Assembly: GCA_001557505.1 (NCBI GenBank)
Contig: LSAX01000001.1
Coordinates: 3,286,001 to 3,350,000, forward strand
From: Reticulascus tulasneorum
Lineage: Eukaryota > Ascomycota > Sordariomycetes > Glomerellales > Reticulascaceae
DNA length: 64,000 nucleotides
Reading direction: 5' to 3'
The notes under the pieces were generated by a model that searched no databases, was not told where the DNA came from, and saw only the letters and a program-made list of their open reading frames with translations. Below, piece after piece: positions 35,031-41,045 of the stretch (within the stretch, counting starts at the first letter, position 1; each line of letters opens with the position of its first letter). The translations under genes and the position numbers were made by a program.

Positions 35031-38000
35031 ATGGCGAGCAACGATGGAGCCTGGCATAAAACCAGTCTCCAGGCAGCCAGAGAACGGAGCCAGACATATT
35101 CCACAACTTCCGTTGCGGGACAGAAGAGGACGAGATCTGAATTCAGCCATTTGACATCGTCTCGGCCCTTGGTAAGAGGTCATTCCTTATACTTTCAAAG
35201 GTCGTCCAGTGCCCCGGCTGGTCCTCCTAGGTTGACTGCAAGCTCCATCGTTTCCTTAGTTTCAAGCTCTGCGCAGGGTCCAACCGAGTATTCCCAACGA
35301 AAGGGCATCTCGGCAACCCCTTCCGCGACTGTTGATCCTCTTCTTTCTCTATCCCACACTGTCTATGATCTTCCGCCGCCGCTCGTCCAAAACTTTCACA
35401 ATCTTGGGATCAAAAGCATCTATCCCTGGCAGAAGTCATGCCTTTTGGGACCAGGGCTTCTTGCGGGTGAGAAGAACTTAGTATACAGCGCGCCAACTGG
35501 GGGCGGGAAGTCGTTGGTAGCAGACGGTGAGCGCTGGCACACCTTTGGTCAACCGTGAAGCTCGGCTAATGGAAGTTCAGTGCTGATGCTCAAGAGAGTC
35601 TTACACGACCAGGATGCCAAAGCACTCCTAGTTCTGCCCTATGTTGCGCTTGTCCAAGAAAAGGTTCGTTGGCTACGTAACATTGCCCAAGGCTTGACCA
35701 AGGCCAGCAACCGCGCTGCTCGTGACGAGAACGACGGACTTTGGATGAAACGAGCCGACGAAGGGACTGTTAGAGTTGTAGGTTTCTTTGGCGGTAGCAA
35801 GGTCAAAGCGACATGGCTCGACTTCGATATTGGAGTTTGCACTATGGAGAAGGCATGTCTATATGGTAATCTTCCCCGAACTGAGACTAATACATAGGGT
35901 TTGTAGGCCAATCAACTGGTAAATACAGCAATCGACGATTGCTCCATCACAAAATTAAAAGTTGTGGTCTTGGACGAACTGCACATGATTGACGATGACG
36001 GTCGCGGATACCTCATGGAGCTTATGGCCACCAAATTGCTCACTCTCGGACAGTCCATACAGATTATTGGCATGAGCGCAACATTATCCGTGAGCTGGCC
36101 CGGCGAAATTGGAGACTATTATTGTTACACTGCAGACTAAACGTTATTCAGAACATCAAGCTTCTCGCAACGTGGCTCGACGCTCACGCATACGAGACTC
36201 GTTATAAGCCCGTGCCAATCGAAGAGCACTTGGTGTACGAGGGAAGCATCTATCTTGCTGCAGCAGCGACCAAAACCGACTTACTCACGACAGCCAGCCA
36301 GTCGACCAGGGGTGCTATTTCCGCACAGGGCAGTGCTAAAGCTGTGAGATTTATTCACTCCTCCAGTCACAAGGAATTCCAGGACCCGGTCCTCAACGCG
36401 GTTGTTGCACTTGCAAATGAGACCGCCAGAGCAGGATATGGAGTTTTGGTATTTGCCAGCAGCCGACTAGGTTGTGAATCCGATGCTCGGCTCATCAGTA
36501 GAGTCATGCCTCGGTTGCACGAACTTGATCCTGGCTTGATAGAAGAAAGAGGCGACTTGCTTGCTGGATTGCGAAGTTTAGGCACTGGCCTTGACCCTGT
36601 TTTGGAGGAGACCGTCCCGTTCGGTGTCGCATTTCATCGTGGGCAATCTTCCTATACTGATTTGGTAATACAGCTAACCTCTCATAGATGTTGGTCTCTC
36701 ATCGTCACTCTTAACTATTTAATAACTGTCTCTAGGCTGGATTGACAACCGAAGAACGAGACTTGATTGCTAATGCTTATGACTCTGGAGTCATCAGGGT
36801 TTGCATAGCTACCTGTAGCCTTGCAGCAGGCATCAATCTGTAAGTCCTCACTGGCCATACATACTGGAACACGGCTGAGGGCCTCAGCCCGGCTCGTAGA
36901 GTCATCCTTCATGGGGCGAAAATGGGCCGAGACTTGGTCGGGCCTTCAATGTTGAGACAAATGCGGGGCCGCGCGGGACGTAAAGGCAAGGATGAAGTCG
37001 GCGAAACGTATCTCTGTTGTCGCAAAGAGGATCTGGAGGAAGTTGTTGAACTGATGCATGCGCAATTGCCACATATCTCAAGCTGCCTCAACTCCGACAG
37101 ACAGCGAATACAAAGGCAAGAAGCGAAACATATCAAAGAATTTTACTCTTTGCTGACTTCACATTCAGAGCCCTGTTGGAAGTCATTGCTATACGGTTGG
37201 CCACCAGCCGAGCTGCAATCGAGGACTACGTCACGAAGAGCCTTCTCTTTCACAGTGGCACCCCCGAGTCACTGCAGGACTGCGTAGAGTCGAGCCTCAA
37301 CAACCTTCAAAAGATGGGGTTTGTACAGATGGATGAAATCTCAAACTATCGTCCAACTCAGCTAGGTAAAGCTATCGTTGCGTCTGCCTTGGATCCCGAT
37401 GATGGGGTGTTTATTCACAAGGAGCTGGCGCGAGCATTGCAAGCATTCGTCATGGACGGCGAGCTACATGTCCTTTATACATTCACGCCTGTTCAGGATT
37501 CGAAAAAAGATTCCAGCCCAAATGTCAACTGGCAAGTATTTCGGAACGAGATGGAAGCTCTTGACGAGAGTGGACTACGGGTACTTGGTTTTCTAGGGCT
37601 CAAGCCCGCGACTATCGTTAAGCTGTGAGTGCCGTAAGTGCGCCTCTTTGTGATGTAATTGACAGTATACAGGGCGCAGGGTAGTACACTCAAAGAATCC
37701 ACGCCGGAGGAGAGGGATATTGCTCGAGTCTACCGTCGGTTTTACCTTGCACTTCAATTGCGAGATCTGTGCAACGAGGTGCCAATCCTTACCGTTGCAC
37801 GTAAATACGACGTTCCTCGTGGCGCTGTCCAAACCCTTTCACATAATTGTCATGGATTCGCTGCTGGCATGATTAAATTCTGCCAGCATATGGGATGGGG
37901 GTGAGAAGCTCCCGATACAGGTTATGTTTGCAACTTCACTAAACCAGCCTACAGCGCCATGTCTGCTGCTCTTGACCACTTCACAGATCGATTGAAGGCA

Positions 38001-38437
38001 GGAGCGAGGTCAGACTTACTAGCTTTGGCCCAAATAACGTTCGTAAAGAGCAGAACTGCGTAAGCGTCGCCTGGTCCACCTCCAGCTCGTGTCTGACAAG
38101 CCGTGCAGGAGAATATTTTGGGATACCGGGTTTCGAAGTGTCGCGGCCGTGGCCAATGCAGACCCTAAAGAGTTACTCCCAATCCTAATGCAGGCAAGAA
38201 GAGCTGAGATAAGCCGGGCAGATTCTCGCTGACGAAGGACAGGCCCAACCGAGTAAAGTGCGCGTAAAAGGGATGGAGAGTGACGATAAGTACGAGGAAA
38301 AACTGCTGGCAAAAGCGACTATTATCTGCAATTCAGCCAATCGACTGTGGCGTGAGTTGAGCTACTTGTTGATGGATTACACAACAGCTAACGGCGCGAC
38401 AGAAGTGCAAATGCAACAGGACCTTGACGAAGAGTAG
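35031..38437 (+). CDS. POLQ/HELQ-type superfamily 2 DNA helicase
   Basis: Thirteen exons: 35031-35526, 35581-35852, 35907-36089, 36152-36638, 36688-36689, 36736-36839, 36888-37115, 37169-37624, 37673-37900, 37955-38059, 38109-38193, 38243-38351, 38403-38437; 929 aa, in frame throughout. It has Walker A (SAPTGGGKS, ~residue 155), DELH box (VVLDELHMI, ~275), GMSATLS, motif IV-V AFHHAGLTTEER, TCSLAAGINLPARRVI and motif VI QMRGRAGRKG (~540), then a winged-helix region and a C-terminal helix-hairpin-helix part (LLPILMQAQPSKV). This is the helicase half of POLQ/HELQ (Hel308), 3'-5' enzymes that unwind forked DNA in repair of breaks and crosslinks. No polymerase domain follows. Introns 2, 7 and 11 need GC donors and the fifth exon is 2 nt long. 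If that exon is not used, a donor at 36665 gives nine different residues there. Confidence 0.88.
36688..36689 (+). other. Predicted 2-nt microexon in the helicase gene
   Basis: Exon 4 ends with ...TTT CAT C at 36638 and exon 6 begins GCT GGA at 36736. The invariant motif FHHAGL needs two extra bases, A then T or C. The bases AT at 36688-36689 supply them, preceded by a branch site (GCTAACC) and acceptor (CATAG) and followed at once by GT of an intron ending CTCTAG. The two introns are 49 and 46 nt. Both donors (GTGGGC, GTTGGT) are weak. The exon could be formed by sequential removal of the two introns. Confidence 0.6.
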
Positions 38438-39665: not shown

Positions 39666-41045
39666 ATGGCAAACAACCGCCGCGCTGGAAACGGCGAGGG
39701 GAGCAGCTCGGGTGCCGGGAGTGCCTCGCGAACCTTGGTCGATGTGATGAGAGAACCGTCTACCAGCACGCCCGACATCGTCGTGCTGGATCGGACCTAT
39801 GATGACAGGAAACGAAGAGAAGTCTTGGACCCACGGGAGGATTTGTGGCTGTCTTCTGCGGACGGGCGGTACAACTCGCCTATCGTGCCCCTTCGAGTCG
39901 GACAAGCCCCGAACCTGGAGATTTTTCATGTCCACAAGGACGTCTTGACCAGCGCCGAGTACTTCAGGAAAGCCCTCTGCGGGGATTTCAGCGAGGCCGG
40001 AGCACAATCAATGGACCTGCCAGAGGAAGATCCTGCGATTTTTCATTTCCTCGTGGCTTTTTTGTACCAGCAGGCCTTCGTTCCCATCCAGCCCATAGCT
40101 TCGGTTTTGACCTCTGAGGCGGAAAGGGGCAAGGGGAGGGACCTCGGGATGCAGGGGGCGGATTCGGACTCGGAGGCTTCGTCTTCGGATTCTAGCATAG
40201 GAAGCGACAATAGCGCGAGGAGCCGGAGGCGGGCGCAGCGAAGGCAGCGGCGGCAAGAACGACACTGGGAGCGGCTGGATCAGAAACATCCCGGCTCGCA
40301 CAGACCTGGCTGCCGGTGTCCCCGCTGCATTAGCAATCTGGGGCCCCCGTGCTGGAACTGCGGCGTCTCTCGATCGCGGCCGCTCCCCCCTCCAGCCATG
40401 CCCCCAGGTTTCCCCACCGTCGTTGTTCAAGGGCCCCGGCGCACGCGACGACCGCGCAATCGACATCATGGGATGTTGACACCGCCGGGGGGGACTGGGC
40501 CGGCTGTGAACGCCGCGAACGGGCCCAATGGGAATGTTTCTGGAGACAATAGTGCCATGTCGAACGACCGCATTCAAGGGGAAGATATGCGTACGTGGCT
40601 GCTGACGTACGAGCTCAGCCTCGATGTGTACATCTGTGCCAACAAGTTCCTTATGGATGATTTTAAGTCTGTCATTATGAGGCACTGCGTGGATATGCTC
40701 GAAACGGCGGGATCCGATGCTGCCCAAAACGAGGTCCTGCGTCTGTGCTACAAGCTCTATGCCGGCGTCCCCGAATCTGACCAGCTACTCAAGATGATCT
40801 TTGCTCGAGTTGGTTTCCTACAACCGCTGTTGTGGCAACGTGCACCGCAGGAAACATCAGAGTTCTTGATCAGCAACCCGGAGGTCGCGGCACTCATTCT
40901 TCGGGAGACGGCAACGCGTCGAGAAGAGGACTATGGCGGCAAGAACCTGCCGTCGATGGACCGCCCGAGTCCTCACGCATTTCCACCTTTCCCCCCTAAT
41001 CCTCCTCTTCATCCCCATATGCCGCGGGCGCCAAATTGGCCTTAA
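39666..41045 (+). CDS. BTB/POZ-domain protein with a Cys-rich insert
   Basis: Single exon, 459 aa; the ATG at 39666 sits in a good context (CAAACATGGC). A BTB-like core begins near residue 70 (LEIFHVHKDVLTSAEYFRKALCGDFSEA) and continues through DLPEEDPAIFHFLVAFLYQQAF. It is then interrupted by a ~170-residue low-complexity insert: an acidic Ser run, a basic SRRRAQRRQRRQERHWER stretch, and a Cys-rich piece CRCPRCISNLGPPCWNCG that could bind zinc. The BTB-associated helices resume near residue 305 (ELSLDVYICANKFLMDDFKSVI). The C-terminus is Pro-rich. Fungal proteins of this type are mostly uncharacterised; BTB domains dimerise or recruit Cul3 ligases, but neither is shown here. Confidence 0.82.
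   Translation: MANNRRAGNGEGSSSGAGSASRTLVDVMREPSTSTPDIVVLDRTYDDRKRREVLDPREDLWLSSADGRYNSPIVPLRVGQAPNLEIFHVHKDVLTSAEYFRKALCGDFSEAGAQSMDLPEEDPAIFHFLVAFLYQQAFVPIQPIASVLTSEAERGKGRDLGMQGADSDSEASSSDSSIGSDNSARSRRRAQRRQRRQERHWERLDQKHPGSHRPGCRCPRCISNLGPPCWNCGVSRSRPLPPPAMPPGFPTVVVQGPRRTRRPRNRHHGMLTPPGGTGPAVNAANGPNGNVSGDNSAMSNDRIQGEDMRTWLLTYELSLDVYICANKFLMDDFKSVIMRHCVDMLETAGSDAAQNEVLRLCYKLYAGVPESDQLLKMIFARVGFLQPLLWQRAPQETSEFLISNPEVAALILRETATRREEDYGGKNLPSMDRPSPHAFPPFPPNPPLHPHMPRAPNWP

Follow-up and report, generated by a model that had tools for sequence, protein, structure and literature searches.

It has been reported that CYP621A of Fusarium contains an exon of a single nucleotide, according to its authors the first in a fungal gene, and exons of 2-5 bp are cited there for Arabidopsis, Drosophila and humans (Nelson and Syed 2026, PMC12940212). 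In plants, 1-nt exons have been described in APC11 and VPS55 (PMC8831610), and a 20-nt microexon is known from Xlr2 of Trichoderma (PMC11121469). Here, a putative 2-nt exon in a HELQ/POLQ-type helicase gene of Reticulascus tulasneorum is compared with these cases, as they are presented in the available portions of the reports. Like the helicase exon, that of CYP621A is smaller than a codon, lies between short fungal introns, completes a conserved motif and was missed by annotation, and both were deduced from a phase mismatch together with relatives (PMC12940212). However, the CYP621A exon has one base, is restricted to Fusarium and is backed by RNA reads (PMC12940212), whereas the helicase exon has two bases, appears in several orders, has a visible single-intron precursor and is predicted from sequence. 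The exons of APC11 and VPS55 are likewise ultra-small, widely conserved and often unannotated, and loss of flanking introns has led to intronless copies, but they belong to plants, consist of one base and lie in other genes, and that of VPS55 is alternatively retained in some plants (PMC8831610). The Xlr2 microexon is also found in a filamentous fungus and absent from the gene model, although its 20 nt are switched by glucose (PMC11121469), while the 2-nt exon gives no sign of regulation. In the open-licence literature of PubMed Central, mostly titles and abstract openings, no report of a 2-nt exon in a HELQ/POLQ-type helicase gene was found. The helicase exon would be the second ultra-small exon in fungal genes, and apparently one far more widely conserved than the Fusarium case.

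The window is the whole stretch of DNA that was analysed, 64,000 nt of contig LSAX01000001.1 from an assembly of 42.8 Mb in 35 contigs. Its positions 36639-36735 very probably hold two ordinary short U2-type introns and a 2-nt coding exon, AT, which belongs to a His codon of the motif FHHAGL, in an old arrangement that selection would have kept. This reading draws on the unique parse of the junction, on C/GT and AG/AY/GT in the open reading frames (ORFs) of relatives (slashes mark exon-intron boundaries) and on single-intron ORFs elsewhere; splicing of the pair in R. tulasneorum itself is predicted from the same material. The features are as follows:

35031-38232, + strand: HELQ/POLQ-type helicase gene; with the 2-nt exon, the model has 894 aa, no stop and ten introns
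36152-36638, + strand: exon 4, ending TTT CAT C, where the C is the first base of codon 480 (from aligned orthologues)
36639-36687, + strand: intron 1 of the pair, 49 nt, GTGGGC...CATAG, phase 1
36673-36678, + strand: branch-like site GCTAAC of intron 1, by resemblance only
36688-36689, + strand: AT, the 2-nt exon, supplying the last two bases of the second His codon in FHHAGL
36690-36735, + strand: intron 2 of the pair, 46 nt, GTTGGT...CTCTAG, phase 0
36710-36715, + strand: branch-like site CTTAAC of intron 2, by resemblance only
36721-36726, + strand: AATAAC, second branch-like candidate of intron 2, by resemblance only
36736-36839, + strand: next exon, starting GCT GGA TTG ACA (A G L T; from aligned orthologues)

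The gene product contains the Pfam families DEAD (PF00270), Helicase_C (PF00271), HTH_61, POLQ_helical (PF21099) and DUF7898, and the scores of PF00270, PF00271 and PF21099 lie above the cut-off, which identifies it by domain content as a HELQ/POLQ-type helicase; no polymerase family was found in the Pfam search of the product. When a 154-aa segment was compared with solved chains, those of human DNA polymerase theta were the nearest, with six POLQ sequences at the top (best 2.1e-34), and ASCC3 and Brr2 ranked below POLQ among the solved Ski2-like helicases. The best protein matches came from Colletotrichum, with 72% identity (best 120 of 908 matches), and in a tree built on exon 4 the helicase falls into a group of 18 rows (support 97) together with Colletotrichum, Sodiomyces and Verticillium, which points to Glomerellales as the probable order of the source. 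The pair, with 49 and 46 nt, resembles the eight remaining introns of the model, which have 48-62 nt. Two of the ten introns have GC-AG ends (35853-35906 and 37116-37168, donors GCATGT and GCAAGA), and joining across both restores conserved protein sequence. An adjoining single-exon ORF of 459 aa at 39666-41045 has a weak BTB/POZ match (PF00651, 3.6e-05).

When GT-AG introns of at least 40 nt are allowed, one or two at a time, the junction can be parsed in 107 ways. Seven of these parses enter the next exon in frame without a stop, and a single one, composed of a 49-nt intron, AT and a 46-nt intron, gives FHHAGL. An earlier note on this DNA had proposed precisely this division and had stated that no single intron gives the motif; the enumeration bears out both claims, and the coordinates, the acceptors CATAG and CTCTAG and the presence of a branch-like site in each intron are also as it described them. 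The layout is CATC/GTGGGC (36639)...CATAG (36687)/AT/GTTGGT (36690)...CTCTAG (36735)/GCTGGATTGACA. As is expected of an ultra-small microexon, AT is preceded by an acceptor and followed by a donor, and it is needed for both the frame and the motif. When the 97-nt gap was shuffled 20,000 times with its dinucleotides preserved, AG/AY/GT with two introns of at least 40 nt appeared in 0.16%, and in 0.03% when a branch-like site was demanded for each intron. The motif is contiguous in human POLQ (GVAFHHAGLTFEERD) and uninterrupted in the three paralogue loci of the source genome that were examined (HHAGM, HHAGM and HHSGL). Among the rejected candidates, single introns from donors 36614, 36626 or 36665 keep the frame and do not build FHHAGL, nor do two parses with a 6-nt exon between two introns, and a 2-nt exon obtained from donor 36624 gives FDAGL.

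Consecutive removal, under intron definition, of two short introns that lie next to each other is also what the accessible text of several reports describes for the stwintrons of Pezizomycotina (PMC9024468, PMC8469720, PMC6616335). Stwintrons are common in related fungi, and a HelQ gene of Hypoxylaceae is reported to carry a [D1,2] stwintron (PMC8469720, PMC9024468), so the junction could be conceived as an external intron whose splice signal is split by an internal one, with no exon between. In a stwintron, however, the splice signal of one intron is interrupted by the other and nothing is left between them, whereas the helicase pair leaves two bases, and donor, branch-like site and acceptor are uninterrupted in both of its introns. 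Moreover, nested removal leaves one genomic junction, and FHHAGL was not obtained from any single junction when nested introns were tried, which makes a stwintron at this site vanishingly unlikely. Further stwintron literature, in the portions available, had no match for microexon and helicase terms. Should the HelQ stwintron of Hypoxylaceae occupy this codon too, each arrangement may be convertible into the other.

Both introns are complete, with a normally spaced set of donor, branch-like site and acceptor, so that each could be recognised across its own length, and such pairing across the intron has been argued for Pezizomycotina (PMC6616335, available portion). Since an exon of 2 nt is too small for two spliceosomes at once, the introns would have to be removed stepwise, in either order, and stepwise splicing under intron definition is plausible. 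The spliced product would read TTTCATCATGCTGGA. Joining the outer sites directly shifts the frame to CAT CGC TGG ATT..., with a TAA 13 codons on, and such a product would probably be degraded; the site might therefore, as a prediction, act as a splicing-efficiency control on a repair helicase. The locus would show how an exon too small for exon definition arises and persists under intron-defined splicing.

The DNA of relatives was approached through unspliced ORFs that read through the junction and were back-translated, so that codons are inferred; the contigs appear unspliced. With exon 4 extended into the intron as the query, 118 of the best 120 of 139 matches have the anchor, and of the two without it, judged by eye, P0204 reads FHRK and P0209 has the contiguous motif in another frame. 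C/GT, seen as R after CAT, stands at the same codon in 114 of the 118 anchored ORFs among these best 120 of 139 matches, while three of the remaining ones go on with HA (contiguous) and one with HV. In the same set of matches, R is followed by K or E in 74 of the 114, which is compatible with GTAAR or GTGAR, and by G in four, which corresponds to GTGG at the first donor too.

The second junction was examined by determining which pair of bases stands between AG and GT about 39-90 nt downstream in the back-translated tails. Among the matches listed, AT reached a summed probability of 8.29, compared with 1.64 for the synonymous AC, and no other pair exceeded 1.06. The tails of 58 of the 114 FHR rows are shorter than 44 nt and uninformative on this junction; among the 56 of at least 44 nt in the matches listed, AT fits 31 (mean 3.3 and maximum 10 in 300 shuffles), and the 25 that do not fit are all shorter than 75 nt and may stop too early. 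AG/AT/GT fits all 19 of the tails of at least 75 nt among the matches listed (mean 2.5 and maximum 8 in 2000 shuffles), and in these translated ORFs the ultra-small exon is thereby conserved. When rows of at least 105 nt were pooled from the read-through and spliced-segment searches (n = 32), seven of those listed (P0149, P0165, P0170, P0183, P0215, P0231 and P0355) could accommodate the whole two-intron structure, with 47-73 nt for the first intron and 48-54 nt for the second; in 200 shuffles of all 32 rows, the mean was 0.25 such rows and the maximum 2. The other 25 rows listed comprise 21 with a single intron and four (P0137, P0151, P0200 and P0237) in which a second acceptor is not visible. 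P0355 fits AC only, which suggests that the wobble base can vary while the histidine stays. A tail ending in RC is ambiguous between TGT (donor) and TGC (exon); P0227, one of the 31 AT-fitting tails and shorter than 75 nt, fits both patterns and better as a single intron, and P0238 fits a single intron only. The alignment of intron positions in related species, which the earlier note had named as a check, speaks for its proposal, as read-through ORFs that group with named Sordariomycetes hold AT, and in one row AC, between two introns. In the tree built on exon 4, the AG/AT/GT rows fall with Glomerellales, Hypocreales, Coniochaeta, Chaetomiaceae and a Truncatella group.

The donors were compared in a survey of 264 kb of the source genome, which is crude and noisy (overall GT enrichment 1.07) and has GTAAGC and GTAAGT near its top. 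The first donor, GTGGGC, was not enriched (2 seen versus 6.3 expected), the second, GTTGGT, was slightly enriched (6 versus 4.0), and the donor of the competing single intron, GTAATA, was not (2 versus 4.3). The survey tells against the first donor being strong; as a weak donor, GTGGGC leaves room for inefficient splicing in R. tulasneorum. It could even be supposed that the gene is damaged in this species, with an unspliceable site and a locus becoming a pseudogene, since GTGGGC is under-represented at donor-like positions, whereas K or E, compatible with GTAAR or GTGAR, follows R in 74 of the 114 relatives among the matches listed. Against such damage, which we regard as extremely unlikely, no stop interrupts the other 893 codons, none of the expected Pfam domains is missing, and the four R-G relatives among those listed have GTGG at this donor as well.

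With the spliced segment as the query, more distant fungi were reached, and 119 of the best 120 of 194 matches were new with respect to the earlier searches. Among these, the motif (HHAG or HHSG) is contiguous in 58 of the 119 rows, and 21 of the 22 FHR rows run to D/AGL or D/AGM, that is, C/GT...AG/AY-GCN with one intron, in which AY is already joined to the next exon; the remaining FHR row is P0355. P0307 and P0350 read AGM instead of AGL and were counted as single-intron rows via ...D/AGM, and four distant FHR rows (P0297, P0306, P0317 and P0320) also permit AG/AY/GT elsewhere. As P0343 and P0345 are identical in the region used for the trees, the 21 single-intron rows represent at most 20 independent ones. 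According to the earlier note, the 2-nt exon would be contradicted by relatives that have one intron and encode the motif without interruption. Single-intron ORFs do occur (21 among the matches listed), but AY adjoins GCN in them, which supports AT as coding, and contiguous motifs are found too, as would be expected where introns were lost or among fungi at a greater distance.

In a quick tree with human POLQ as the root, the query groups with the 19 named Sordariomycetes that were included (26 rows, support 91), and none of the single-intron rows falls within this group. A more careful tree was built with fewer rows, eight being omitted by name (P0265 only as a second copy) together with half of the intron-less distant rows, and its backbone is a polytomy at the relevant depth. 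Since the placement of the single-intron rows outside Sordariomycetes comes from the quick tree only, it is support and not proof. On this sequence evidence, intron 1 is old, a phase-1 intron at C/AY being common to more distant fungi, and the gain of intron 2, 2 nt downstream, most likely preceded the split of the sampled orders of Sordariomycetes, by which gain AY would have become an exon; we infer a single gain as well as its date. It is likely that the 2-nt exon has a single origin, in which a second intron was gained 2 nt downstream of one already present, and that it persisted while much of the fungal class radiated, since the histidine that it completes is almost invariant. Selection on this histidine would retain the AY exon, and some lineages would have removed it by losing one or both introns. 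In the simplest history, intron 1 alone was lost in the F. oxysporum-like P0178, and both introns in the Xylaria/Nemania relatives P0173 and P0212 and in P0198; by eye, the Apiospora hydei protein P0106 (FHHVSMEPCCLHRSLTGIQAGL) looks like a case in which intron 2 was retained and intron 1 is gone. The comparisons support an extension of the interpretation from one locus to a feature that would be common to several orders and have a visible precursor. With an extant single-intron precursor, the two-intron state and two modes of loss, it would be possible to follow within one gene how an exon close to the minimum size is born, maintained and lost. Since orthologues with one, two and no introns exist today, one could test in which order splicing proceeds and what a 2-nt exon costs.

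The annotation of this junction was followed in an orthologue search, in which 7998 candidates sharing most words were scored. Among the best 120 of 908 matches, [FY]HHAG[LMI] is intact in 79 and absent in 41; without the 14 rows of the source "lgn", it is intact in 65 of 106 and absent in 41 of 106 of those listed, and among the 26 listed rows named Colletotrichum, Sodiomyces or Verticillium it is intact in seven and absent in 19. The breaks sit at the junction, where either part of the motif is missing or residues are present that differ between species, and look like gene finders failing at one place. Gene models of this repair helicase are therefore wrong in many fungi, 41 of the 106 orthologues listed being without an intact motif. 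Comparable inserts of unrelated residues in some annotated orthologues (e.g., P0008, P0015, P0016 and P0099) could be taken in favour of a single 71-nt intron from donor 36665 to acceptor 36735, which stays in frame, dispenses with a second intron and, as the earlier note had said, inserts residues in the motif (FHRGQSSYTDLAGL), giving 902 aa instead of 894. However, the inserts of the orthologues differ between species exactly where the unspliced ORFs show C/GT, and the 71-nt intron would break a motif that is contiguous in POLQ and the paralogues, would use a donor that is not enriched and would be longer than every other intron of the gene, so that we consider it very unlikely.

In the material analysed, no transcript of R. 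tulasneorum was found. Two pairs of rows are suggestive, and only that, of AT in mature mRNA. P0122, an ORF on a 1379-nt contig that ends FHRKSNQETFTSLAANTIIFRC, shows no difference over 193 residues from P0002, which is full-length, contains FHHAGL and is encoded on a contig of 5749 nt, and P0184, whose unspliced tail ends in QM (CAG/AT/GT), is identical over 159 residues to P0115 of Ophiocordyceps sinensis, annotated with FHHAGL. In P0122, exon 3 is joined to exon 4 and yet the ORF reads into intron 1. It is the one row of 83 with this exon joined, a count made with a loose anchor that misplaced at least P0181; P0122 may be a partly spliced RNA, or its species may be without intron 3. The intron of the pair may be removed late. 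In addition, P0054, P0078, P0103 and other Diaporthales-like rows of the source "lgn" are ORFs that span the full length of the orthologue, on contigs of at least 4.7-8 kb, which suggests that this order may have no introns at all in the gene, unless the contigs are transcripts.
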